Source of the DNA: Scedosporium boydii
Taxonomy: Eukaryota; Ascomycota; Sordariomycetes; Microascales; Microascaceae
Direction: 5' to 3'
Length of the DNA: 64,000 bases
Assembly (NCBI GenBank): GCA_002221725.1
Contig: NJFT01000147.1
Location: 1 to 64,000 of the forward strand
The position numbers were made by a program, and so were the translations under genes. The notes under the pieces were generated by a model. The model did not search any database. It was not told where the DNA came from and saw only the letters and a program-made list of their open reading frames with translations. Shown here one piece after another: positions 1 to 52,640 of the stretch. Position 1 is the first letter of the stretch. Every line of letters starts with the position of its first letter.

Positions 1-211
1 TTTTTCGCTCCTGGGGATTTCCGTCTGAGAGTTTTCGAATTTGTGATTTCTCTTCGCTTTTCCTTGTTTTACATTTATTCTTATTTTTTAATGTTTCATT
101 CTAATTTTTTATTGACCCAACCTCATTAGATATGCATACATAACGCGGACAGCTTACCACCGGCAATGGGTCTTCAAATGCTAAGACATACACAGGTACA
201 GCAGACTAGAC

Positions 212-2096: not shown

Positions 2097-5000
2097 TCAG
2101 GACCGCACCTCAAGTGTCTCTGAAACGTTTCCTTTGGTCTTTTCCGCGTCAAGGGTGAACTTTGCAAGGCGTCTCTTCTTTCGTTGGAGGTCGATGATAT
2201 TCTGTAAACAGTTAGTCGGGACTTAGATCAGAAGGAGTGCATCCCGGGGTCGAGTACCTGCTCCACAGTTTCTTTCATCATGTACCGGTAAATTGTGACT
2301 TCTCGAGTCTGACCCATGCGTAGGGCCCGCGCAATCGCCTGTTCCTCTACTGCTGGGTTCCATTGGGGCTCCACGATGTGCACGCTGTTTGCAACTGTGA
2401 GGTTCAATCTGTTGCGAGGTAAGTATCAATTGACTTGCCTAGGTAGAGGGTTGGACGATTGTGACGGGCATACCCGAGAGCACCAGTTCCAATGGTCATA
2501 AGTAGCACAGGTAGTTGGGGGTCTTCCTTGAAAGCCTTGAAGTGTTTGGATCTCTCTGCGTAACCCACCCGGCCGTCTACCTGACGGCATGGGATCTTTG
2601 CTTGTCTGAAGAGCTGGGAGAGGAGGTCCAGTGTCGATGTCCAATATGAGAAGATAATGCTGGCTAGGTTAGCGAGAGTTCCCTGAAATTAAGGGCAGAA
2701 TATAGTTACCTTTTGTCTCCCGGTCCGCTGCGCGCTACATGTTTCACGACAGCATCAAGTTTCGTTGAGAAGCCGCTGAGTGGGACAGGATTTTCCTGTG
2801 TTGCCGGAACATGATCCATCTCATTAGAGACCATGCTTGTATCACCAAATATGCCATCTGAGTCGCTCCTCCGGCTGCGGGTGGAGCCAGGGGTAGTAGC
2901 AATAGACGAATCCAATGGTCTGCCGCATCCTGGACAGAACGAGTAACTGTCCAGAAGCATTAAGATGTCTTCGTCAGTAGCAATACAGCGTTCGCATCCA
3001 GTTTCTGAACGCAACAGAGAACCCTCGCTATCTTCAACCAATGAGAATGTCCCAATGTTGCAGAGCATCCGCATCTTGAGCATTGCCGTGAAAAGCTTGT
3101 TGCACTTGATGGCGTCCCCCTTGCAGATGAGAGAATCGATTTCCCGCCTCGTTGTATCTAACACCAGATTATAAAGGCTTCGCTCTTCAGATGAAAGTGG
3201 GAAAACAACCTCTTCTTGCCGAGAAAAGGGAAGAGTTAGACACTTCTCACTCCTCCTCAAACAGTAAGTCTCCAGGTATTTTCGAAGAGGTCCTGCGAAG
3301 TTGGGGCCACCTTCCGAAAGCGGGCCCAGAACGTGTTTCTGGAAGGCTGCTTTTGTCGAAAGCGGAGGAAGTCGGAGGAATTGAGCCAGAGAGGTTAGAT
3401 CATCCAGTTTATTCTGGATGGGAGTGCCAGTGAGACACCATCTGCTCCTACTGGAGAGGCTCGCTGCCGCCCGAAATTGCTTGGAACCAGAATTTCGAAT
3501 GCAATGGGCTAGATTTCGTTAGCTATTGGACTTATTGGACCCCCACTTACGAAAAAGAAACACGGTAATAGAGTGAGTCTGTACCTTCGTCCAGGACTAC
3601 GCGGTACCACTCCATTTGCTGGAGGATGCCTTGGCCGGCGCCGTCTGCGACCAGCGTTGCGTATGTAGTCAATACCACATCGAATGACCTCAGAGTCTCC
3701 GGGTCTCGGGGTCGATTGGAACCATGGAAACTAACGGAACTTAGAGCTCCCGGAGAAAAATGCCTACCAAAGTTAGTAGCTGAAGATCAACTGCAGGTCA
3801 GAAGTATTTACGTTTGTATTTCCGACTCCCAACTTTCGAGAAGCTCTGCAAATGATTAGAACATTTTCAACTGTATGGCCTCTCCGACTTACGAGCCGAC
3901 GATACAATAACCAGAGTCGCTTTCGTGCGAACTTTGGCCGCCATGTATTCAACTTCAGACATCTGGTAAAAGTTGCCGAAACTTTCTGCTAGGGCCGCGG
4001 AATGCAAGATCGCCGTGAGCGTCGTAAGTGTCTTTCCGAGGCCCATTACATCTGCAATCAACCCGCCGAAAGAAATAGATGGCGTCTCTTCGATTCTGTT
4101 AAATGGTTAGCCAAAGAATCCACTAAGAGAAGGAGACGGACTTTCCATACACACTGACGATGCCTTGGCGTAGCCCTGACCAGAGTTGCTGGCAGAATCC
4201 TTCATCTTCCCTTTGAAGAATAAAGCGCACACCATCTTCCTGATGCCTGTAATATTTTTTTATTCCCTCTTTAGCACAACGTCTCCATTTGATTGCTCTT
4301 TTTGGTTCCAATGCTTACTTTTTGAGGGTTGAGGTGAGCCCGGCTGGTACCGCAAGACTCTCCTCTGCGGCCACATTTGTCAAAGACTCAAGTATATTCC
4401 CAACTTCTTCCGAAACCTTGATCTTCAGAGCCCATGGAGACTCGTTCCCTATACCGACGAGGTCATTCATATTCAAGTCCTCGTCAGAGAACGAGAGGAA
4501 TTGTGGGTTGCGGTATTCGACCCCTGCATTCAACGACTTGGGATGTTGGAGATACGCAGAGTGTCTCGACAGTTGGGATGCCACGTCGTCTGCGGTCGAC
4601 TCTCGGCCGAAGATGTTAATCGACACATCGAACGATTTTAGTCCCTGTTTACCCCCCCGCTGGCGCTTCGTAAAGACGCTGGACTCCATGACGGCTTCAA
4701 ACCGCACCTTTGGTGTGCCTCTAAGAGAATTCAACTTGGAGCCAGTCCGGGTATCCAAGACCGCAAACTCCTCGCCAGTTTCGGAGCATAGTACGTAATA
4801 GTGGTCCTGAGTCCGCAAACAAAAGCGCGCGAACGGTGCAGCGCTTTGGGTAGCAGACAAATGAGACGGTATCCTAGTTTTACCCAGGACTTTTGCCTTC
4901 GCATGATATAACTGAGAATAAAGCGTGAGATGTGTTAATCCAGTCTTTCTGGCAAATTCTGTGCCTTACCGAGCCATAACAGACCTCGTGGACAATCAAT

Positions 5001-6310: not shown

Positions 6311-9300
6311 ATGACGGGGCCAAATGCGGATAGCTTCCAGCGAGCTCTCAATCGATTCAAAAAGTCTCTCTCTCCGGACCTCGTCGATCAGTTTTCCGTC
6401 TGCACTTTGCAAGATGTCCGCGACATTTGCCGCGACATGCAGCAGAGTCACGGACGAGAAGGAAAACTCCGGTATATGCGACGACTTGAGGGTTTCGTCG
6501 AGGTCATGGAGCAGTTTGGGAAAGTAATTGATTTGTTTGTGAACGTAAATAACTTTGTATGCTTTATATGGGTGAGTGATGATAACCTTATTAGCGGTCG
6601 GTAGTTGCTGACGTTTGAAAGGGCCCGGTCAAGTTCCTCCTCGGGGTGAGTATTACCAGTGATGAAATTTTGCTTATTGGATTTTGAATCTTAACAGAGC
6701 TCTTGGTCTCAGATGGCACGAACTTATCTAGAATCCTTCGATAAGTTGCTCGATGTATATGCCCAAGTCGGCGAAGCCATTCCTGGTCTTCTGCGCTACC
6801 GGGCCACTTTCGAGGAACACCCCCCTATAGCCACTGTTCTCGAAGACTACTATTCAGACATCCTAGTATTCCATGAAGAAGCGCTCTCCGTCTTCAAGCG
6901 ACCCAGTATGCCCCCCTCCCCCTTCTCTCTTACAGGTGCAAGTGAAGGCTAAAGTTCCATAGCATGGAAGACAGTGTTCCGGTCGGCCTGGAAAATTTTC
7001 GACACGAAATTCAAACCAATTCTGCAAAGTCTGAAGAATCGACGCGAATTACTGGAAAGTGAGAAAGGCTCGGCAACTCTCTACGAGATCCAAAGGCTTC
7101 GGCGAGACGTTTCAGCCATGCAGGCAGAGCAAAGACAGCAAATGAAACAAGAGAGCCTTGAGAAGCATAGGGGACGAGTATCTTGCATCCGAGAAAAGTT
7201 ACAGGCCCCGAACTATCAGATTGACCAAGAGATCTCCACAGAAGACAGAAATGGAGACAGCTCTGGGAGGTGGATACTTGAGGATCAAAACTTCCGGGCT
7301 TGGTCCAACAAAAATATACCGGGCCATGGCGCCTTATATGTCAACGGAATACCCGGTGCAGGTGCGTCGCTCCTCAGTGTGACCGATCAAATGAAGTCCT
7401 AACGACGGTTTAGGCAAGACGACGTTGATGTCCGCTGTTATCGAGAAACTTTTAGATGAGAATCCTTCTGACGCGAACGGGTGCTGCGTCGCTTACTTCT
7501 ACTTCAAGCATAAGCAGGCAACCAAAGAGTCGCATAATAGTCTCCTCCGAGCGATTTTGGAGCAACTCATCGACAATGATACCACTATATGCGACCACCT
7601 CTACGGCGGGATAGTGTCTACTGAAGGGGTCAATTTGCGGTCGACGAAGACACTCGAGAAGCTGGTCATGACTGCCTTGAAAAGTTATCAGACGGCTTAT
7701 ATTGTCATTGATGGCCTAGATGAGTGCGCCTCTAATGAAGCATCAAGGTCGGTTAAATGGTTCCTGTCCCTTGTAAACGGACAGCTAGGGACCGCGGGCG
7801 CTGTATTACGTGTGTTGTTCTGCGGTCAGCGAGATGGCGTTCTCGACAAGTTGCTCGCAACTCAACCTTCAATCTCCTTGGAGACATCTGGCCATATCGA
7901 GGACATTCATCGGTATTGCCGAGATTTCTGTGAGAAAATACGAGAGAAATTCGACATTCCTCAGGAAATGGAAGAAGACGTTATCACACGAGTTAAGAAT
8001 GAAGCAAAAGGTATCTACTGAATCTAGGACGCGCTTGGTCAATGTTAACATGATTGTAGGCATGTTCCTCTATGCACGCGTCGTATTGGAAAATCTACTG
8101 AATCAAACAACACTTTCTCGCCTGAAGCAAGAAATTGAACCAGAAACCTTCCCGCAAGGAATTGAGAAGGCGTGAGTACACCATCACTAAAAAAAGGGTT
8201 GGTTTCAAGACCATGAAGTGACGAATACTCCTCCTACATAGATACGAAAGGGTGGCTGTGCGGATATTTGAAAAGTCATCGAACGCCGAACGCGAGGACG
8301 CAATGAAGATCTTAGGCTGGATCACTTGCGCCAGACGGCCCCTTCGATGGCGCGAGATCCAGGCCCTTTTCTGCATCGACCCAGTCAAGGGGGTCGTTGA
8401 CTACGAGGAAAGAAGGCTCAGGGTCACTTGCAAAGAGCTTTGTGGATCTCTCGTCGACGTGCATCATCTGGGCGAGAAAGAAGCGAGCCCCGAAGATATA
8501 ATAAAGATTGTCCATGAGACCGCTCGAGTGTAAGTCCTCATATACACTCCTTAGACGGGCATCAGCTAATTCGCGAAGATATCTTGTCCGAAGAAAGTGG
8601 GTCGACGCTAGTCTTGAACACGCCAAGGCTGCCATCTTCTGTTCGAGATATCTCACATCAGAGCCATTTGAATGTGGAATCGACGAGAACGATATTGATG
8701 ACTATGCAGGAAAGGGATACTATGCTTTTCAAGACTACGCCGTTCGGTATTGGTTCGACCATTTCCGGACGTGCGCCCAGTTATCCACAACCTCAGACCC
8801 ATGCCGATTTCAAGAGGTCATGGAATCAGCGCAAGACTTCATTAAATCTTACGGCCTATCAAAAATAGGAGAAATCCAGGAGATACGAGGACACGGGGAT
8901 GCTGCCACAGTCCTTCAGGGCCTTCCTGAAGACGGAAATGAGAGAAACGCATATTTCAATATCGAATTCAGAACTGCCTTAATTCGGGGGAGAATAGAAG
9001 TGCTTCAAGGTCGAGTTCTCGATCCTGCAGTGCAAGAGATTCTTGTCAACCTCCACGGAGCAGCGGCACTCTACAAATGTTCTAAGCCGTGGTGCCAATT
9101 TTTCACGACCGGCTTTGGAAATGCGGAAGACCGCAAACGACATGTCGACCGCCATGACCTCCCGTTTTACTGTCCCTTTGAAAGTTGCTTCGCATTTCAA
9201 CACGGATATGACACCCAGTCGAAACTGGACCGTCACCAGAAAGTTCACCACCCTGAGCTGGATGATGGATTTACGTTTCCTAAAATAACCACGAAGAAGG

Positions 9301-11034
9301 AGGTAAAACTCTGGAAGGCTTCCGCCCAGGGAGACTTAACCGTCGTCAGATCATTACTCGACTCCGGTGTTGATGTCAATGAACCAAGCAGGGCCGGTGG
9401 TAAGGATACTCCGCTTTATTTGGCAGCAAAAAGCGGTCACTTTGAAGTCTGCAAGTTGTTACTTGAGAGAGGTGCTAGTATCAATTTTGCTGGTAAAACA
9501 GAGACTGGTTCTAATGGTGGACGTACAGCACTGCATGCGGCCGTGGTGGCCGGCAACCTAGACATCGTTCATTTGTTTGTTGGCCAGAAAGAATGCCTAC
9601 CGGACAAGGTCGACTATTACGATCGGTCGCCGTTTTGTGAAGCATGTGTGCTTGGCCATTTGGGCACTGTCAAGGTGTTATTTGAAACAGGGAAGATACA
9701 AACGGATCTACGCCCAGTACGCCACCCCGACTGCTACAGTGACAGGTTTGACGAGTCATCGTTAACACCGCTTGGTTATGCTTGTATCGAAGGGCATTTT
9801 GCCGTGGTGCAGTATCTTTTGCAGCAGGGGCAATCCACCTTAGTTGATGAGGACCTCATAGAAAGAACTGCTGATGGGGGCCACGAGGATATCGCTGACT
9901 TGCTTCGTGCGGCAGTCGTGAAGCAATATCAGCCCCCAGGCGGGGACTGGTCCGTGGATGTCTTCCAATATGCTTCCCGTCCGCTAGACGTCGACCTCCT
10001 CCACACTCTTGAGCATGAGCGTGTTGTCGGGTGCATTAGCTTTAGCCACGATGGCAGGTATGTAGCGACCGGTAGCTATGGATCTGCTCAAATTTTTGAC
10101 GTCAAAACGGGCGATAAGGTCTATGGTTTTCAAGACGATATCATAGACGGGGTGGACGACAATCACGTCGGCAGCGTTTGCTTCAGCCCCAATGACAAGT
10201 ATCTGGCAGTCGCATGTGAAGACAAAGAGCTTCGCGTTAGTTTCTTTGCCATCTCCTAAGTCTTGTTGCTGCCCACATACTAACGCGTTCTCCTTCAGAT
10301 CTATGACATTGCCGCCAGGACAATTCGCAACATCTTTTCCCACTACGAGCAAAACATTCTTTCAGTTGACTTTGCCTCTGACGGTCGTACCGTTGCGTCG
10401 GCTGGTAAAGACCGTACCGTGCGCCTCTGGGATGTTGAGCAGGGACATAACACTCTCATTCTCACAGTCGACGCTGGCGTCTTGGGCGTTGCCTTTTCAC
10501 CCGACGCCAAGTATATCGCTGCCGGTTCTGTGGACGGGAGCATCCGCATTTGGGACGCTTCAGTTGGGTACCATCTAGAAACACTCGGTGCGGAAGGGCA
10601 CAGTGATGCCGTTTACAGTGTTGCATTCTCCCCTGACGGCAAGAATCTCCTCAGTGGTAGCCTGGACAAGACCATGAAGATGTGGCAGCTCGGCAGTCTA
10701 CGCACCCCCCCACTTAAGGGTAGCAAGTGTGTCAGGACGCTTTATGGCCATAAAGTAGGTTGTTAATGAGCTTTGCATTGGGACATATTGCTAACATAAA
10801 TATGTACAGGACACTGTTCTCTCGGTTGCCCCCACTCCCGGTAATTCTTGGATTCTCTCAGGATCGAAGGATAAGACTGTCCGGTTATGGGATCCTGAGA
10901 CCAGGGAGGTCCTGTTCACACTCCGGGGTCACAATGATACCGTTATGAGTGTTGCCACTAGCCCGACCGGCGACTACTTCGCCACTGCGTCCGGTGACAG
11001 GAGGGCCCGTATCTGGACTTATAAGAGAAAGTAA
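6311..11034 (+). CDS. NLR-like protein: DUF7708, NACHT, C2H2, ankyrin and a Tup1-type WD40 propeller
   Basis: Ten exons, 1403 residues, all phases consistent: 6311-6571, 6622-6645, 6713-6905, 6963-7361, 7414-8010, 8060-8171, 8242-8529, 8579-10235, 10299-10754, 10810-11034. Residues 1-200 match the fungal NLR N-terminal domain that I know as DUF7708. A coiled-coil-like linker follows. The NACHT NTPase has Walker A GIPGAGKTT (about 288-296) and Walker B VIDGLDEC, with the downstream winged-helix HETARVYL motif at about 620. Two C2H2-like fingers lie at about 789-846 and ankyrin repeats at about 865-1075. Residues about 1078-1403 form seven WD40 blades of the Tup1/RCO-1 type, including the linker DWSVDVF...LDVDLLHTLEHE before blade 1. 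Tup1's N-terminal tetramerisation and Cyc8-binding region is absent. Fungal NLRs act as STAND sensors in non-self recognition and cell-death control; that role is inferred here. No stop or frameshift is seen, so the gene appears functional. Confidence 0.9.
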
Positions 11035-23955: not shown

Positions 23956-25869
23956 CTACACTAAAAACAGAACCGCAAGGCACGTTCCGACAACCTGGGC
24001 CACGCCCGAAAACTGCCTTCCCATCGCGGCCACGCCACCACTCTGCACCGGTGAATTATCACCGCCCTCGCTAACACCAGCAGCATCAGTGGCCAGCCTG
24101 AGCTGCACAGAGCCCTTCTCCTCCGACGGCGTTTCTATTGCGGGCAGCATAGCATCGAGCATCGCGCAGTTGTCCTGCTGCGTGCGCGGCATCTCCTCCA
24201 TCTTCGTATTCCCCGTCTGGAAGAGCAGGCGCTGCTTCGCGTCCGTGGTCCAGGGCATCCACGTAGGCATGTCAGCCCTCTCTACTTGCGTCACGAAACC
24301 AGCTGTTTCGGCGTTAGGATTGAGCGATCGGACAAACTTGGCCCAGTAAGCCATGGTAACGGGAACGATGGGCGCATTGGACGTAGAGTAGCTCTTCGGC
24401 GGCGCTCCGTCCGTGTTGTTCGGTCCGAACACGCCGTTGAGTTCGACGGTGTGGTAGGCTCCGAAGCCGAGTTCTTCCTGCTCCGTGTCGAGCACGCCGT
24501 ATCGATAATTCCACGTCAACACGCCGTCGCGGGCCTGCGCATCCTGGAGCTTAGCCGTCACGCAGTGCGCGCGGAAGTCTCCATGCGCATTCGCCAACTG
24601 TCTCCAGAATCGTCCCGAATTATTAAACATGGGCTGCTCGACGTCGATGTACGTTTCGCGAATGAGCGCGAGCGAGTCGTCACTCAACGCGCCCGAAGCC
24701 TGGTCATTGACGAACTTGAGCGCCGCCTCAACGGTGTCCGTGTCCCGAGGAACGCCCTTCGTGCCCTCGTCGGTGCAGGACCCCGCGATCGTAGGCACGC
24801 GGAGGTATTTCCCTTCGGCGAACCGGCCCAGCATGGGCGCCGGCACGAGATCGTCGTCGAGGTGCGGGTTGAACTGACAGTTTTGGGTCTGGAGCGCCGA
24901 CGCGTTGACGGATCGGAGACAGGAGAGGGTGTCGGCGGAGGAGGAACAGCCGGCCGCTGAGACGAGGCAGGCGTATTGTTCTTGGCCTTGGGACATGGAG
25001 CGGACGGTGGCGAGGGAGACGGATTCCATTATGACCCCTTTGAAGAGGTTGGGGTCGTTGTCTGCGAAGGCGGAGAGGAGGAGGGCGATGGATGTGGCGC
25101 CGGCTGAGTCGCCTGCGAGCACGACTTGGTCAGGATTCCCGCCGAACTAGAGAAGTTGTTACTGTTTAGCCCTCCTTGTCTTTCATATGTCGCTCCTGCT
25201 CTTGCGTCCGTGAGAGGGAGACTTACTCCGGAGATGTGCGCCTGGAGCCACTTTAACCCCTGGATCAAATCCTTCAATCCGTTATTCAAGCTCCCTCTTT
25301 CCTTGACCTCTTCAGACTGCAAGAACCCAAAGGGCCCAACCCGGTAATTCACCTGCACAACCACGATATCCCCAAACATGGCCAGCGCGCTCCCGTTAAA
25401 GTTTGCGTTCGAATTCGACTCGAACCCGCCGCCCTGTATGAAATACATCACCGGCACGGGGTTCTCCGCCGTGGCTGCCGTGGGAGCGAAGATGTTGAGG
25501 TAAAGGCAATCTTCCGACACAGTGAAGCGGCGGTTCGGTTGCATCGTAAAGTCGTTGGGGCTCCTCGGGAGACAGATGGGTTTGAACTAATGTTGTTATT
25601 ACGATGAAGTCCTTGCGTGAGAAGAGGAATGCTCTTTTCTTTACCTGCGTCGCGTCGACAACCTGCTCAGTCGCGGGCGGGTCTATCGGCGCGGAAAACC
25701 TCAGCTCACCCACTGGCGGTGCGGCGTACCTGACGCCTAGCCATTGCGTTACGCCGCTCTGTTGGCTCACGCCTTGGAGGCGCGTGTATCCCAGGTCCAC
25801 GAGGGGGCCGACGGCCATCACGGGGCCGATGAGGCCAACGAGGCCCAGGGAGAGTACTAAGGGTCGCAT
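23956..25869 (-). CDS. Secreted type-B carboxylesterase/lipase
   Basis: Three exons (25869-25645, 25586-25227, 25146-23956), all phase 0, giving 591 residues. A signal peptide (LVLSLGLVGLIGPVMAVG) starts the protein. The alpha/beta-hydrolase core shows the family's SEDCLYLNIFAP motif (about 90-105), the oxyanion-hole stretch FIQGGGFES, and the nucleophile elbow LAGDSAGATS with Ser about 209. The acidic partner is likely Glu in GSCTDEGT (about 319) and the His is in YHTVEL (about 428). The mature protein has several Cys that can form disulfides. The last 20 residues are hydrophobic (GVAQVVGTCLAVLFLV) after a Ser/Gly-rich stretch, which resembles a GPI-attachment signal. It would hydrolyse esters outside the cell or at the wall; the substrate is unknown. 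Confidence 0.88.
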
Positions 25870-44318: not shown

Positions 44319-47300
44319 CTACCAGAAGCTACACCATCCAATATAATGCTGGCAGAGATTCTCCAGCTTCGTTGCCTCAATGATCAGCTTATTAACCTGG
44401 CTAACCACATCTAGCTCCTCGGCGTTCTTGAAGTCCCGACCCGTAAGTTTCTGCTGCACACGGTCGAGCACCTCGAGAGCTCTAGCGTTCTGCACTTCGA
44501 CGACGTCGGTGTGACCGTTGCTGTTGCCGTTGACCACTCCGTCTCGCGCGACAGACGAGTTGGTCCTAGCCCGGGATCGCGTGCTTGGGAGGCCGGTTGG
44601 CATTCCGTCCATGCCTGCCTGGGCAGCCATGAGATCTTGCGGGCGACCGTCGAGAACCGAAGCTCGTCGACCACGGCCGCCATGCGGGCCCGCGATCGCG
44701 GCTTCTCGCGCCGACTGGAAGGGTCCAGCAGGACTTTGTGTGTTGGTGAGACGCCAGGTTAGGAGGGGATCGTGGATGAACTGAACCGAAAAGTTAGTAA
44801 CAATTATGGGACGAAAAGGGCAAGGGTAAGGGGAAGAAAAAAAGAACAGGGATAAATATGGATAGATCACTCACAGCTTCAAGGACAGCCATCACACTCT
44901 CCTTATTCTCCCGTAAAACTCTCATGACATGTTCACACGTAATCCTGAAGCTACCCTCGATATTGCTAACTTCCATGGCGTACGTGAGCATACGCGTGAG
45001 TCGGAACGGCACTCGCTCGGGGTACTTCTCTCGCTTCATGGCAACCTCGAAACAATCGCCGAAATCAATGTGGATAATCTTGCCCGTGATACGATCAAGC
45101 ATGAGATTCGATGGGTGGCGATCGCCGAGACCCAGGATGTAGCCCACCATCGACATGACGCCGAGCGACCGCGTGTAGTTGGTACGCCTCTCGAGCCAGG
45201 CTTCCGAGCTCTTGCTCTTGAGCCAGAGGACGCGGTACAGATCCTGACCCGTGGTGTTGTCCAGTGCATAGCCAAACACCTCCACCTTTTGCATGAGCGT
45301 CAAGTTATCATAGTCGGGCGCCATCTGCAGCATGATGCGGTGCTCGATGTTGAGGAGAATCTTGCGGCTTTCGCGGTATTCGCGAATAAGCACGTGAAGC
45401 GTGTCGCTATTGGGAACCCAGCCGAGAAGACCCGAGTTCTGCGACAGGGGAATCGCAGGGTAGCGCTGGATGTTGAGGTGGCGCTTGTAGCACTCCGAAT
45501 CATTGGCGAGGAGCGTGTTACACAGGCCGAATAACTGCATAACTCTTTCGTCTTGGCGGATATCTTCGTGGCCTTTGAGTAGGAACGCGTACGAGATGCC
45601 GTCGCTACCGCTAATGTTGAGCTTACGCGGTCGCTGCTTCGAGTTGATGACGGTGAATGTCGAGTCGAACCCTTGGATCCTGACGACCGGCGCACCGCTG
45701 CGGTACGTTCCGGGGACGGCAAGGTCGAGGTCCTTGGCTGCGAGGAGTTTGGGCGAACAGTAGGTGAGCTCCAGAGACGTCACCTGCGGAAGCTGTCTGG
45801 AAATCCGCCTGAACACCTGATAATAGAGGTCCCAGGCTTGGTTGAGGTCGTTGACATCCTGCGTCGTCTGGTACTGGCGGCACCACTCCCGCGCCTCCGT
45901 CAAGTCGCGACCAAAGGCCTGGACAAACGATATCTCTCGCAGTGTCTCTGGTCCTCGCTCTAGGAGATCGTGAAGGGGGCCGAGAACGGAAAACATGCCG
46001 TCAATGTTGTGATCGCCAAAGTAGAGGCGCGATGCCTCTTCCAGACCCTCGTGCCAAAGTTCGTGCCAGAGTACCGCGACCCGAATAAGCTCTTGGCTGA
46101 CAATTTCGGCTTGTGCGACGAGGTTGGCGCTGTGTTGACGCATGCTATCCATGATTTGAGCCGCCGACTTGGACCGCATCGAGCTCTGAGACGATTTCAT
46201 CGCCACGGTAAGCGGGTACACCAAGGCCTGGGGGTGCGCTCGACCGACATCAGCCAGGAGATTGTGAACCGACTGCTGCACGCGTCTGTTGGGCTGGTTG
46301 ATGCGGGCAATGAGCTGAGGAATCACCTCGAGCCAGGTGTCGACGCTAATGTTGGCGAAACCTTCGGTAACGGCCGAGTTGACCTCGGCGCTGCCGCCGT
46401 GAGCAAACCAAAGCGTCAGAAGACGCAGTGTGTCTTGCAGCGAGCTTCCCGCAGACAGGGCAATAGACTTGAAGAATCCGCGGACGGCGGGAACGACATG
46501 GTCCAGAATAATGGCCGGGTCAATACCAACGTGCTCCCTGTCTGCACGAGAGGTGATCTGGTTGACGATTTCAAAGTTGGCGAGCGCCCATCCGTGCCAC
46601 GCCTTGTACCAACGAGGGTTGTATTTTGTAGCCGCCGAGTACGCTGACAGAACCTCCCGAACCTGCTCCTGGTGCCAGGTATCGCGGTGAAGCGCCCGTA
46701 TCCACTCACCCTGTCGGAGGTAGCATTTCGCCAACAGCACCGTCTGGTCCTGAAGCGCCTTGTGAGTCTGAGGGCTCAGCACCGAAGGATCAAGAGGATG
46801 CTGGAAGTTGAAATCGCTCGAGATCTCGAACCCATTGGGCGCTTGAGCGCTCAACTGGTCCTTAATGTGCTCCAATCGAGCCGCCGTCTCGTGGGTAAAC
46901 TTTCGAAGGGAGTACAGAGCCCTGGAAGGTAGGTCGTTGGTTTTGATACCGCCAGACTGCACGCCGAGATCCCATTGATACTTCAAAATACCGTAGATGA
47001 CCTGAGCGGGAATGTTCCTATTGTGCACAGGTTGTTGTCGGTCTCCCCAGTAAGGAAGGACCGACTCCAGGGGCCCCTCGATGCCGACAAGCTGCTTGAG
47101 TGACTTGTCGGCCAAGCCCATCCGGCCAGACTTGCGGCACAGGTTCGCAAACTTGATCCACATGTGCATATTCTCGGCGGGTGAGATGACCAGAGCCCGC
47201 AACCTAAGCATTCGGTGCCAGACTTCGACGTTGCGCTGGCAGCCCTTAAGCCGTGCTTCCCATGTACGCCGCATGGTCGCTTGCTTGCGTTCGTCGCATT

Positions 47301-50300
47301 GTTTGTAGACAATAAGCTCCTCGAGCTCGGCAAGCATCTGCACGCGCACGACAACCTGGTAAGCTCGGTTGTACGATTCGCTGACAAGCGCGCTGAGCTC
47401 GGTATCCAGCCCTTCCCGCGCATGCTGGACGCTATTGAGGGCCTCGCGGAACTGATTGCGGTGCAGAGCAAGGATGGCGCTAAAGAATGAGCGATCTGTC
47501 GACGAGCGTCGCATGGACTGCAAGTAATTGTCCATCGAGTCCCACTTGCCTAGACCCCATGCAGCGGCCGTGGCAAGCGGTGCGATAAGTCGTTGTAGGT
47601 CAGGAGTCGCCGACTGCCATTTTTCGTTTGCGAGAGTTGCGAGGGTGTCCCATTCACCGAGGGCGTGCAGACACCTCATCTTGCCCATAATAACCTCGAT
47701 GGGGACGGCCTCGTTGTTATTTTCGGCATCTTCCAATCTCTTATCATAGAAGGCCAGGGCCTCCTCCCATCTCTCGAGCTTCTCGAACCAGGTCTCCCTC
47801 AGAGTGATTCCGTCCTTGTACAGCTGTGCGCGTCGAAGGATACCGATGGCAGCGTCAGACTGTTGCAGCTGATTGTTGATAACGATAAGAGCCTCAACAG
47901 CGCCACTGCTCTGGTCTTGAAGGAACTCGAGTTCCTTGTAATGAAGGGCCTTGGCGTATGCGTGGCAGCGGGCGGCCTCCCGACCGAGGACACGGATATC
48001 AATAGGGAGGGCCTTGTCGTCGTGTTCCATAAACTCGGCGAGGTTGAGCAGAAGTGCAAGCAGATCAGGAGGCACATTTTCGGACTTAATAGCACTCTCA
48101 ATATTTTGAATCAGCTCGTCCTAGAGTACATAAGAAGGGTTAGTCCTGCCAACAAATCGTTTGCTCAAAACTTCCTGTGGGTAAAACATACTTGAAACTG
48201 CTCATAAAGTTCCCCCCAGCATGACACAAATGCCGAGTTAAATAGTTCCCGGGCAAGAGGCAGGTACACGCTGGCCAAGCTCGCGCAAGCCCTGAGGGCA
48301 TGGTTCGGCGACTCGCTCAAGAGCGTTGTGCTAAATCGCCGGAGCCACTCCTGCCAATCCTCTTTCGTCGATTTGCCCTTCGTATCCCATGCGGCCTTGA
48401 GGTGCACGGGGTTCATCTCAAGCTTCTTAGACGCGAGATCACCAAACAGAGGCTCGTCCACCTGATCCGCAGGCCTTTCGGAGGTCAAATGCTGAGGCAG
48501 AGGTTCTCCTTTTTGGAGCTTGCTCACGAGGAGCTCGTAATTCTGGTGCTGAATTTGATTGCTTGCCAGAATTTTGTTAACGGAACTCATGAAGGGAATA
48601 TATTCCCTGCCGAGTCCTTGGATAAGGGCACAAAGTGTGTCGAGAGCCGCAATCCGCAGGGAGGATTCGCCAAGCGTCAGGACACGGGTAAGGGGGTGGA
48701 TGATTCTAGACGCAAAGTCGTTGAGATTGACCTCTCGTGAAAGCTTACCAATTGTCTCAATCGCGAGTTTCCGAATGTAGATCGGTTGACGCTGCTTTTC
48801 AAAGGTACGCACGATCACAGGGATGATCAAGTGCATGTACTCCTCACTGCTAGATCCAAAGACCAGGAACGCATGAAGGACTCGCTCAGAAGGAATTCGT
48901 TTGGTCGAAGCATCCCTCTCTAGGGCGCCAAGCATCAAGGGCAATAGACCAGCAAGGTATATCTTGAACTCGCCTTCCAAGGACCTCGAGATGGCTTCGA
49001 TCAGCTGCAGGATCGTTGTCTGAAGCGAGGACGACGTGTTCCAGTACTCCTCGAGAATCTCAATGATATCAGGCAGGTAGTTTCGAATGTGCTGTCGCAC
49101 GATGCTCACAAGCGTCGCGAGCTGGTTGAAGTAGGACTCGAGCCGCTGGGCGGTGGATGATCGAATAACGTGGAGGAATGCCGGGATAATCCTATCGAGG
49201 AATTGAACACATTCGAGTCCTAAGGTGCGGAAAATGTTCATAATCGCCTCGATCACAGCGGCGTGGTGCTGGACCAAAGAAGGGTCGTTTAGAATCTGCA
49301 GGAGAGCGTTTATCACAACAGTCGAGTAGTACTCCTTGTTCGAAGGCATCAGCCCCGTCATCATCAGGGAAATGTCGGTCATTTGGGTGGCCTCGACTCG
49401 ACGTTGCAGTTCCGGAGTGCGCTCCTCAACTTGCTAAGATGATAGAGATTTGTTAGTACGACGACGACGGCTTCTTGGGGTGCAGCCATCCACCCCATCA
49501 TAAATGGGCGGCAGCGGGATGCTGTGCTTGGGATATCTAATTGATGCGAATGCGCAAGGGGTTGACAGCTCGTCATGTCCCTCTTCATCATCTGAGACTT
49601 CAGACAGAGATTGTTGGATGATGTTGATATCCGCGTATGTAGTCGCGAAGGTGGGCTTTCGGGCAAGGCTATGGTAGTCGGAATTTACCTGGTGCTTGTA
49701 AGGGTCCAAAGCGCCCAGAATACCCATCAGCTTGATCGTTTCCTGCCTCAAAAGCCCATGATGGCCTTCGGACCGAATGATTCCTTGCAGCAACTCGAGC
49801 AGTTCGGGGTACTCGAGGTAAGGCTGAATGACGTATCCCGAGTTGCTCGCCAGTTGGCCAAGCGCATGGAGGGCGGCTTCTCGCTTCGCGTTCGAGCTTT
49901 GATCCTGGAGCGCACTAATGATGAGCGGCATAAGCTGATCCTTGTATGGCAAAAGGTCCTCGCCGCCGACAGTTGCCAGCTCGCCAATCGCGTTGAGGAT
50001 GGTGGCCGCCACGGACGCCGTTGCGTCGCTCGCCTTCGGTAGCAGAACGGCGATCATGGGTTGGACGTACGGCCGAATCAAGCCCTGGGCATTCTGAATT
50101 AGTAGGCTAAGCAACCTTGCGCTCTCTTCCTTGTTCCTGGCCACATCTGAAAACTCTAGCTCCGTGAGCATCTGGAGAAGAGACTTGCGCAGCGAGGGAA
50201 CGATGTAAGCAGGGTTGTACTTGGCCAGGCGTCCAATAATTGAAATGGCCACTTCGCGAATCGCAAACACCTCATCGTTCAACGCAAGGAGAAGGATCCT

Positions 50301-52640
50301 AATGTTCTCGGCCTTGGCGAGGTGCCTATCGAATCGTTCGTCGAGGGCAGCGAGCACCGTCTGCCGAATGGTTGGTTCGGGATCCGAGATTCCTACAGTA
50401 AGTAGTTTACCAATCACCTCACCTACAACCTGCAAGGCATGCTGGCTGGTCTGGCTGACAATGATGTCCTCCACGTAAAGCTGACAGCAGGTAAGGGCGG
50501 CGGCTTCTCGGATTTCGGGATCGTCATCGTCGACGTACTTTATGGCAACGTCGCGTACGAACTCGTTCAGGACGTGGCCTTGAAGGTGTGTTAGTTTCCC
50601 TCTTCCGTTGGGTTCGTTAGGAAGCGGCGAGTTTGTCAGATACGACATGCCAGGTGAGGTGAAGCTGAAATCAGAAAGCTGGGGTACAGGTGCAGTGGGC
50701 GTCAACGCCCGGATTGGAGAACTGTCCCCCTAGGACTTTGTAGGACCCGATCCTTGGCATGGTTGACGAAAATAGGAGGTCAGGCGGGGACCAGCACTCT
50801 GGAGCCGACGGTGCGCAGGGTTATCAGACGCGCTCAGGCCAAAAGTCTTCTTCACTGAAGAGAAGGCCGAATTTTTACGAGCCCGTCCGCCTCGGCCATA
50901 CTTATGGCTCTGACTGTCGGGAGGTGGTTGCCCTGGGGTAAGCTCAAACCGCCGTGGCGGAGGTAGATTCAACTGATATCGGGAAGGGAAAAGCACTTCA
51001 GTACCTGAAAAGTCGAAGCTGCCCAGAGTGTTGAGGGCTAATTTGATCTCAGCCTTCCTATGCTCGTAGGCTTGGGGGTCCTTGGAGTCTTTAGGGACGA
51101 CTGGTAAAGAATTGAGCGTGTTCGGCTGGGGTGCGCCGAGGGGTTTGAATGGCTCTCCGCAGAGCACAATGCTCAGCATATCGAGGAGCCTCTCTTGGAT
51201 AGTCGCTTTGACGGGAGGAATATAGAAGGCAATATCGACGAGCGCTTGCGTGAGCTTGGGTGTGAGCTCGCAGGCAAAGATTGGATCGAGCAACGCTTCC
51301 ATGTACTTGCTCAGGGTTTGGCCCACGGCCACTGCTAACCGGCTGATGCAGTCAAAGACCGGGTCGACAGATCCCCTCTTTCGAGAAGAGACACTGAGCC
51401 CCTCGCACACGTAAATCAGGACACCGTCGAGGTATGGCGCAATCGCACTCTTGACCGAATTCGCAATGTTTCCGATAGCAAGGAAGGCATCGTTGCGATC
51501 CTTGTCTCGCTTCAGCATGCCAGTCAAATAGAGCATAAACTGGTGGAGGTACCGGCCCGCAAACGCGGCAGGGGCATAGCTCGCAAGGTCGGGAATAAGA
51601 AGGACGATGGTTTTTCGTATCGTGGGATCCCGATGGTCCTTGTGTTTGAAGACGATATCGCAGGCATCATCGTACCGATCTTGCATGTACATTCCACCCT
51701 GTTCCAGGAGCTCTTTCAGCACGAGAAGCGAGCCGTGGATAGACTCGACAGTGTTGACCTTGAGGCCCTGGTTCATTTCGGTGTACATCTTGTTCATCCA
51801 GGTCTGCTTCAGCTCCTGGTCTCGCTCCCTGATAATCCTGAAGCAGGCGCTAACCGTCTCGGCAGCAGTAGTGCGGATGAGCTGGCGCTGGTCGCGGAGA
51901 CCCACCCAGATGAGGTCAAAGATGAGGCCCACGTAGTTGTACATCAGGGTTGGGGCATTCCTGGCCAACTCTCGGAGCTCGAGGACGGCACTATATCGTC
52001 GCTCTTCGATCCGCTCGGACTGGAGCCATTCAAGGGCCGTTTTTACCTCGGCCTCGACTAGTTCTGAGGTCAGGGTACCGCCGGGTCGGCACAGTTTGCC
52101 GAGAGCCATAGCAGCCGCCTGCATGGGGTTGATGTCCTTGCCCCGGAGGATGGTCTTCAGATTCTGCGTGAATCTCGTATATTTCAACGCAACGTCAACA
52201 CCTTCGAAGTCGATGAGGGCGTCAAGCGCATAGATGCCGCCTAGTCGTTCGGAGGAATCGCTTCCATGGGTGATGAGTTGTGTGATTCTGTTGTTGACGG
52301 CTGTGTAGAAGGCATGGAAGTGCTCGGGGGAGAGGTCTGGGGGAGGAGTACGTTAGCAGCCGGGAGGGATAGTGCGCGAGAGAGGGCGGCAGGGCAGAGC
52401 TGGATGGAGGTAAAGAACAAACCTCGGTGGCAGACGATTACAAGATCCCGCAGCTGCGCTGCGGCCCGTCTGCGGACATCATCAGAAGTTCTAGAGCAAA
52501 GAGGTTAGTCGGTGGGAAAGCGGAAAGCCCTCGCCAAGTTCGAGGAGCAGACGGAATTACCTAGACCGAAGCTCCTTCGCAATGACGTCCAGCCGCTCCA
52601 GCGCAACCACCTGTTGCTGCGTGAGCTGTTGCTGCGGCAT
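44319..52640 (-). CDS. tor: Target of rapamycin (TOR) kinase
   Basis: Seven exons, about 2539 residues: 52640-52561, 52490-52423, 52336-50856, 50729-49689, 49433-48192, 48120-44875, 44780-44319. All phases agree, but the donor at 50855 is the least sure. HEAT repeats fill the first 1250 residues. The FAT domain follows. The FRB domain (about 1980-2080) keeps EASRLYFG, with the Ser whose change gives rapamycin resistance, and [11 protein letters not shown]. The PI3K-like kinase has [16 protein letters not shown] (about 2152), catalytic GLGDRHPSN (about 2301) and metal-binding HIDFGDCF. The C-terminal FATC ends in [14 protein letters not shown] phosphorylates growth regulators in TORC1/TORC2 on vacuolar, endosomal or plasma membranes and couples nutrients to growth. 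The last intron lies just after the kinase core. The domain order and length are those of a complete, active TOR. Confidence 0.97.

Follow-up and report, generated by a model that had tools for sequence, protein, structure and literature searches.

The 64,000-nucleotide stretch of Scedosporium boydii DNA analysed here (contig NJFT01000147.1, positions 1 to 64,000; hereafter the window) carries a gene for a fungal NOD-like receptor (NLR) that ends in a seven-blade propeller of the type found in the corepressor RCO-1/Tup1. The propeller has probably been captured from RCO-1/Tup1 as the C-terminal sensor of the receptor and remodelled into a hypervariable recognition platform, which perhaps served originally as bait. 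The same 21 residues of its contact face pass from near-absolute conservation in the corepressor to maximal variability in the receptors, which separates the scaffold from a candidate recognition surface and names the residues to swap.

A Tup1/RCO-1 profile was built from 120 native RCO-1 propellers, namely 119 of the 120 database matches listed (P0348 was excluded) and the host's own. The window propeller scores 436 bits with this profile over model positions 2-327, whereas 120 generic multi-WD40 proteins, the best 120 of 7987 matches of a search with the propeller region, score at most 208.5 bits. Generic proteins of this kind dominate those best 120 matches, and no further fusion was found among them. 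Each blade of the window propeller is closest to the blade of the same rank in host RCO-1 (7/7 blades). The same test gives 7/7 for P0108, P0092, P0046 and P0018, 6/6 for P0106, and 1/5 testable blades for each of two ordinary fungal NLR WD40 domains. The mean blade-blade identity is 0.32 in the window (maximum 0.59) and 0.35 in native RCO-1 (maximum 0.52). An earlier sequence-only reading of the locus had described seven differing blades in Tup1 order and had taken them for a corepressor propeller captured by an NLR. The profile scores, the blade order and the intact parental gene elsewhere in the genome bear this out, and the three blade strings that it cited (GSLDKTMKMW among them) are present in the product.

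The structural comparisons point the same way. The yeast Tup1 propeller (Protein Data Bank (PDB) entry 1erj) matches the window propeller in a single stretch of sequence. By total score it comes fifth; the entries above it are repetitive or designed propellers and a dynein-tail structure whose matched sequence is close to Tup1. For the predicted structure of a relative, P0057, the first three PDB matches are three 1erj chains. The mean predicted local distance difference test score (pLDDT) of this model is 81.5, with most of the propeller at 85 or above; its predicted template modelling score (pTM) is 0.45 and its domain arrangement is therefore unreliable.

In a FastTree phylogeny that includes three ordinary NLR WD40 domains the window groups with native RCO-1 and apart from those three, with long-branch disturbance. 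With a generic WD40 outgroup, FastTree nests native RCO-1, and the window together with P0092, inside the remaining fused rows, which we read as long-branch attraction. FastTree was replaced by a site-heterogeneous tree with 35 rows, which leaves the main group (the fused receptors with the window's backbone) unresolved. The placement proposed by the sequence-only reading as a check thus comes out in its favour by profile score, blade order and the disturbed FastTree; ordinary NLR WD40 repeats were considered for the window and are ruled out by the 7/7 blade order.

The host genome keeps RCO-1 as a gene of its own on contig C11; the protein shares 92% identity with Cephalotrichum gorgonifer RCO-1 and 58% with the fused propeller (187/322 columns). 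As in an integrated decoy, the receptor domain derives from another host protein whose gene persists. Host RCO-1 contains the Tup_N domain (62.3 bits, Pfam), which is not among the 15 Pfam families found in receptor residues 1-1075. The junction between NLR and propeller lies inside exon 8, which is open from upstream of the ankyrin repeats into blade 2. Intron 8 is common to the receptor and host RCO-1, and the capture therefore would have gone via DNA that retained this intron; the last receptor intron has no counterpart in host RCO-1. A merger of two neighbouring genes is ruled out by the junction in one open exon, the shared intron and the recurrence of the architecture.

Variability of the contact face

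In each blade of a WD40 propeller, partners are contacted mostly by residues near the beginning of the first strand and ahead of the b-c turn. Following the WD40 and G-beta literature, we take the 21 hot-spot sites of the top face to be R1, R1-2 and D-1 of each blade. These sites were set before the variability of the family was computed and agree with published positions 7, 9, 25 and 27. In the P0057 model they map to the b-c turn and to the end of the d-a loop or its vicinity. Residue 1109 of the receptor, in blade 1, is an example: it is Gly, and native RCO-1 has an invariant Cys.

In native RCO-1/Tup1, sampled from yeast to Sordariomycetes (49 of the 120 RCO-1 matches listed, the host and yeast; n = 51), the 21 sites are almost invariant, with a mean of 0.013 bit. 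In fused propellers they carry 3.04 bits versus 1.91 elsewhere (p = 9e-10; 22 rows, comprising the window and 21 of the 31 main-group proteins, picked by hand). A larger set of 36 rows (P0001-P0033, P0057, P0072 and the window), of which 32 were used after P0020, P0026, P0031 and P0033 had been dropped for coverage below 60%, gives 3.25 versus 2.12 bits (p = 2e-10), and hot spots make up ten of the 21 columns that vary most, where 1.3 are expected. All but one of these 32 rows retain a smaller share of the hot sites than of the other native-invariant sites; the means for the main group are 21% versus 57%. The window itself keeps 8/21 hot sites (13/21 are altered) versus 115/154 of the others. 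The less diverged rows behave alike, with 2.32 versus 1.51 bits above a score of 300 bits (11 rows, p = 4e-6) and 1.61 versus 1.16 above 340 bits (6 rows, p = 0.01).

When the hot-spot mask is shifted by -6 to +6 columns, variability peaks at 0 and is lower at every shift. On a backbone tree that leaves out the propeller (22 taxa), the hot sites take 13.8 Fitch steps and the rest 8.1; the bottom-loop registers, a set delimited by register without computed exposure, take 8.9 (p = 7e-7 versus the hot sites). Ten fused and eight native pairs were picked by hand. The fused pairs, which are tip-disjoint, differ more at the hot sites in 10/10 cases (Mantel-Haenszel odds ratio (OR) 5.9, p = 3e-22), and the native pairs go in the reverse direction (2/162 at hot sites versus 240/2384 at other sites). 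Furthermore, the propeller is the fastest of eight receptor regions, its mean pairwise identity being 0.35 versus 0.63 for NACHT (20 sequences). The top face varies as though it had become a recognition surface.

A similar pattern is described for the WD repeats of the HET-D/HET-E family of Podospora, in which codons 7, 9, 25 and 27 are positively selected and lie on top of the propeller, the pairs 7/9 and 25/27 flanking the conserved positions 8 and 26 (PMC1805685; this and the other papers given by PMC number are cited for portions of their text). By our own mapping these positions appear to fall in the same registers as the hot spots: the spacing from R1 to D-1 is 18 columns in 7/7 blades, equal to that from 7 to 25. 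At the registers of positions 7, 9, 25 and 27 the fused family has 2.93 versus 1.89 bits (p = 2e-10), with peaks at R1, R1-2 and D-1 and low values between them. The register of position 27 is weaker, with 2.6 bits in the fused family and 0.26 in native RCO-1, that is, it is not invariant there. The corepressor propeller thus seems to have come to vary in the way a fungal recognition domain does, without its repeats being near-identical as they are in HET-E.

Relatives and separate captures

Relatives were counted among the 120 listed homologs of the receptor, a propeller match being more than 60 bits with the Tup1 profile. Such a match is present in 41 of the 120 and absent from 79, proteins of Neurospora, Fusarium, Colletotrichum and Cryphonectria being among the latter. 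The architecture, of which the sequence-only reading knew no described fungal example, is not a one-off: 31 of the 33 best database matches have the propeller match after the same NLR backbone, at 50-67% backbone identity, and 21 of those 31 exceed every generic WD40 protein scored (n = 120). By name, these 31 proteins belong to the Xylariales (Xylaria, Hypoxylon, Daldinia, Biscogniauxia, Nemania and others), with Cosmosporella (Hypocreales) and one protein labelled Lasiodiplodia from outside that order. Partial models from Hirsutella (P0072) and Cladobotryum (P0090) combine a related backbone with a propeller match, and P0057 also matches. On the backbone tree the window lies among fused receptors, adjoining propeller-less relatives; a Microascales gene within a mostly Xylariales group may reflect horizontal transfer or loss elsewhere. 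The closest backbone relative in the same genome is a paralog at C318:17255-20453, with 33-48% identity by segment and no propeller match listed.

Three proteins with other backbones, whose gene models were taken from databases as protein, carry RCO-1 propellers, one of separate descent and two probably so. In P0108 of Gaeumannomyces hyphopodioides the backbone is a different one (23% identity). Its RCO-1 part begins at a proline-rich linker that equals the linker of Gaeumannomyces tritici RCO-1 at 113/132 aligned residues, and its propeller joins that of the same protein with support 100/95 in the site-heterogeneous tree. A single clade of P0108 and the main group is rejected (approximately unbiased test, p-AU 0.0003), and so is one clade of all ten fused rows (p = 0.008). 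P0092 of Sclerotinia nivalis (28% backbone identity) and P0046 of Monosporascus (34%) join five Leotiomycete RCO-1 proteins with support 94/96, the inner forks being weaker. To judge from the protein sequences, at least two independent captures are shown, and four in all are likely. P0046 is from a Xylariales species (Monosporascus sp. mg162), its propeller lies with Leotiomycete RCO-1 and the sister of its backbone is a Phaeosphaeriaceae protein; horizontal transfer is possible.

The contact face is kept at 16/21 sites in P0108, 17/21 in P0092 and 15/21 in P0046. Pooled, the three have hot sites changed above the other native-invariant sites (OR 2.5, p = 0.007); singly, this holds for P0108 (p = 0.011) and P0046 (p = 0.039), and P0092 has no excess (p = 0.76). 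Four further proteins were considered as captures and are not counted: P0055 and P0082 of Aspergillus and P0096 and P0106 of Rhypophila have more distant backbones and score 140-219 bits, near or inside the generic range, although P0106 has 6/6 blades in order and 16/17 hot sites changed.

Gene layout and neighbouring features

The receptor gene was rebuilt by hand, with a coding sequence of 4212 nt for 1403 amino acids and zero internal stops. This agrees with the sequence-only reading, which had a single 10-exon gene with all phases intact for DUF7708, NACHT, C2H2, ankyrin and propeller, except that C2H2 stands at the level of motifs only. The nine introns are all GT..AG and 49-70 nt long; a second acceptor of intron 2 also keeps the frame and adds 5 residues. 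We infer that NLR and propeller would be read from one transcript.

Pfam scores are 113 bits for NPHP3_N at residues 260-427 and 29.9 bits for NACHT at 285-417 (cut-off 26.7). The Walker motifs were read from the sequence: Walker A (GIPGAGKTT, residues 288-296) is interrupted by intron 4, and Walker B occupies residues 387-396. The product thus combines, as fungal NLRs do, a NACHT-type NTPase having Walker A and B with an N-terminal domain (DUF7708) and C-terminal repeats (ankyrins, WD40). The Pfam scan finds seven WD40 stretches in the C-terminal part. No zinc finger is among the Pfam families at E 0.01 where the C2H2-like motifs lie; their Cys/His pattern is visible in the family consensus.

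Table 1. Positions of the receptor gene, its parts and neighbouring features in the window (ORF, open reading frame; HMM, hidden Markov model)
Feature	Residues	Position	Strand	Basis or remark
Whole receptor gene, NLR with RCO-1/Tup1-type propeller		6311..11034	+	Splice model and full-length homologs
Exons 1-5		6311-6571, 6622-6645, 6713-6905, 6963-7361, 7414-8010	+	
Exons 6-10		8060-8171, 8242-8529, 8579-10235, 10299-10754, 10810-11034	+	
DUF7708	59-194	6485..7066	+	Pfam PF24809, 44.6 bits (cut-off 25)
NACHT/NPHP3_N NTPase	260-427	7262..7817	+	Pfam PF24883, PF05729
Winged helix GPIID_WHD	548-629	8297..8591	+	Pfam PF22939, 34.3 bits
Two C2H2-like motifs	792-817, 823-848	9078..9248	+	Motif level; family consensus
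Ankyrin repeats	about 865-1062	9297..9890	+	Pfam Ank_2, Ank_4
Junction, KQYQPPGGDW, resembling AHYKKAGDDW before the host RCO-1 propeller		9921..9950	+	Proteins compared by eye, one open frame
Seven-blade RCO-1/Tup1-type propeller	1080-1402	9942..11028	+	Tup1 HMM, blade order, 1erj match
Hot-spot example, blade 1	1107 (R1), 1109 (R1-2)	10023..10031	+	
Intron 8, KELR/IYDI (host RCO-1 intron 3, KLIR/VWDI)		10236..10298	+	Same site and phase, exon borders
ORF with SNF2-related helicase domain		2709-3518	-	88 bits; upstream of receptor
ORF of 425 residues		12580-13854	-	Downstream of receptor, opposite strand; no Pfam match at E 0.001
Carboxylesterase ORF		23959-25146	-	107 bits
One open reading frame of 1441 residues		30149-34471	+	
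Run of long minus-strand ORFs		44797-52352	-	Perhaps one large gene

Possible functions and known systems

If the favoured reading is right, the propeller would be the sensor of the receptor, and the ankyrins and C2H2-like motifs may add contacts. Its top face would bind a fast-evolving ligand, which could be an effector or toxin of a competitor, bacterium or virus, or else a self protein of another strain that is polymorphic. Such binding would release the NACHT ATPase switch and lead to oligomerisation, and the oligomer would bring the N-terminal DUF7708 domains together to give a defence or incompatibility response. By analogy with NLR biology as set out in PMC12258605, DUF7708 is a candidate output domain. 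RCO-1 itself would be attacked or bound, and the captured copy would first have been a bait (an integrated decoy) that diversified later. A bait for RCO-1-attacking factors would explain the independent capture of the same hub protein, and the most likely reason for its repeated capture would be that RCO-1 is attacked or bound. The sequence-only reading had thought of a decoy for factors that target Tup1; this is plausible, being supported by the independent capture elsewhere. Main-group copies would no longer be faithful mimics of RCO-1, because the conserved face is lost. Tentatively, a wider picture can be drawn: RCO-1/Tup1 may be a recurrent target of microbial, viral or rival-strain factors, several NLR lineages may have captured its propeller as bait, and the copies, mimics at first, may have turned into fast-changing receptors. 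Living species would then display a series that begins with fresh bait in Gaeumannomyces, where most of the face is kept, and leads to the remodelled sensor of the Xylariales and the window, showing how a recognition domain arises from an integrated decoy.

A number of observations weigh against the reading of the propeller as a captured and remodelled sensor. For ten of the 31 family members the score falls inside the generic range (e.g. P0032 with 186 and P0024 with 134 bits), and a Tup1 origin rests there on backbone and position; P0020 and P0029, inside the main backbone group, have no match above 60 bits. The blade order is imperfect in P0002 (6/7) and in P0024 and P0055 (5/7). No hot-spot excess is found in P0092 (4/21 versus 25/153 sites changed), P0019 (7/21 versus 44/151) or P0023, which keeps 67% of the hot and 63% of the other sites. 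The tests do not formally separate P0092 or P0046 from the main group (p-AU 0.087 and 0.088), and on the propeller data a single clade for the main group itself is borderline (p = 0.047), which points to long branches or to multiple origins. Part of the contrast at the hot spots could come from lost Tup1 constraint and from alignment noise. Finally, the same pattern would be expected of a het-type self/non-self receptor, the main rival.

According to this rival, the receptor is the product of a heterokaryon-incompatibility (het) gene; its propeller would recognise a polymorphic self protein from a different strain, much as HET-C is recognised by HET-D/HET-E, and RCO-1 was a ready seven-blade scaffold only. 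We regard it as somewhat doubtful. The coincidence of the hypervariable positions with those of the HET-D/HET-E family and the rank of the propeller as the fastest region speak for it. Allorecognition alone, however, leaves the independent capture of RCO-1 over other WD40 proteins unexplained, although the searches were based on RCO-1-bearing queries, which other WD40 captures would escape. It is rather unlikely that the propeller is a classical conserved decoy, one that continues to imitate RCO-1 and signals when RCO-1-targeting effectors bind or cleave it. The capture of P0108 from its own lineage's RCO-1 and the retention of most of the face in the three separate copies would suit such a decoy, whereas the low retention of the face in the main group would not. 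To our knowledge no RCO-1-attacking factor is known in fungi, and none is evident at title level in the literature searched on Tup1 and mycoviruses. In plants, a review presents TOPLESS, a member of the Groucho/Tup1 family, as a hub that effectors target (PMC12886408), which again fits a conserved decoy.

Relaxed constraint on a decaying passenger propeller would account for the very long branches. It is improbable, however, given that the propeller is retained in nearly all of the nearest relatives, that the WD40 core is visible in the consensus and that change is concentrated on contact residues over the bottom-loop and other mask registers. The sequence-only reading had also raised a link to chromatin, in which the fused propeller recruits RCO-1 partners and the NLR acts on transcription. 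A corepressor propeller next to two C2H2-like motifs invites this idea, which is nevertheless very improbable and is not upheld here: the Tup_N part is absent (host RCO-1 serving as positive control), and the contact face is altered in the window and hypervariable in the family. An artefact, either ordinary NLR WD40 repeats or two merged genes, is scarcely credible for the window in view of its blade order, open exon, shared intron and recurrent architecture, even though the scores of the ten diverged relatives within the generic range point towards it.

Fungal NLRs are numerous, and ligand and bait are known for few of them. A sensor traceable to a named host hub protein supplies concrete ligand candidates, namely whatever touches RCO-1. 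In the titles, abstract openings and text passages searched, with subscription papers and preprints outside their scope, an NLR with an RCO-1/Tup1 propeller is not reported, and no papers were found on rco-1 with NOD-like receptor or on DUF7708. Those papers on Tup1 and NACHT that were opened use Tup1, in the portions concerned, merely as a structural comparison or reference, and the words rco-1 and corepressor were not found in the main text of PMC12258605. Integrated host domains in fungal NLRs, for which both the idea and the case of the CHK2 kinase are on record (PMC12258605, PMC5658179), and hypervariable WD40 sensors are each known separately; a corepressor propeller that was captured and whose pattern of constraint is inverted did not turn up in the literature searched.

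The receptor can be compared with four known systems. Like HET-D/HET-E (HNWD) of Podospora anserina, it has a NACHT domain and a WD40 sensor that varies at the same repeat positions (PMC1805685); unlike them, its blades are not near-identical repeats, and DUF7708, C2H2-like motifs and ankyrins precede the propeller. With the RCO-1/Tup1 corepressor of the Groucho/TLE/TOPLESS superfamily, whose top face is described, for Tup1, as the functional surface (PMC2882346), it shares seven blades in order, a pre-blade segment and one intron site, but it lacks Tup_N, differs on that face at 13 of the 21 sites that hardly vary in the corepressor and is attached to an NLR. The DUF7708-NACHT-ankyrin NLRs of Fusarium, Neurospora, Colletotrichum and Cryphonectria have a related backbone, about 31-53% identical along part of the query, but belong to the 79 listed homologs with no Tup1-type match.

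The fourth system is the CHK2/PRD-4 kinase found in nine Sordariales NLRs as a putative integrated decoy (PMC12258605). There, too, a C-terminal domain resembles a single-copy host protein; one integration with moderate divergence is proposed for the kinase, whereas in the present case the captures number at least two and the face is hypervariable. The same survey counts WD40 among the canonical C-terminal domains, and because of this classification NLRs with an RCO-1 propeller would be inconspicuous in it. This suggests that WD40 domains, canonical in surveys of fungal NLRs, can hide integrated host domains. The parallel to the plant effector hub TOPLESS makes it possible to test whether corepressors of the Tup1 family are battlegrounds of immunity across kingdoms.

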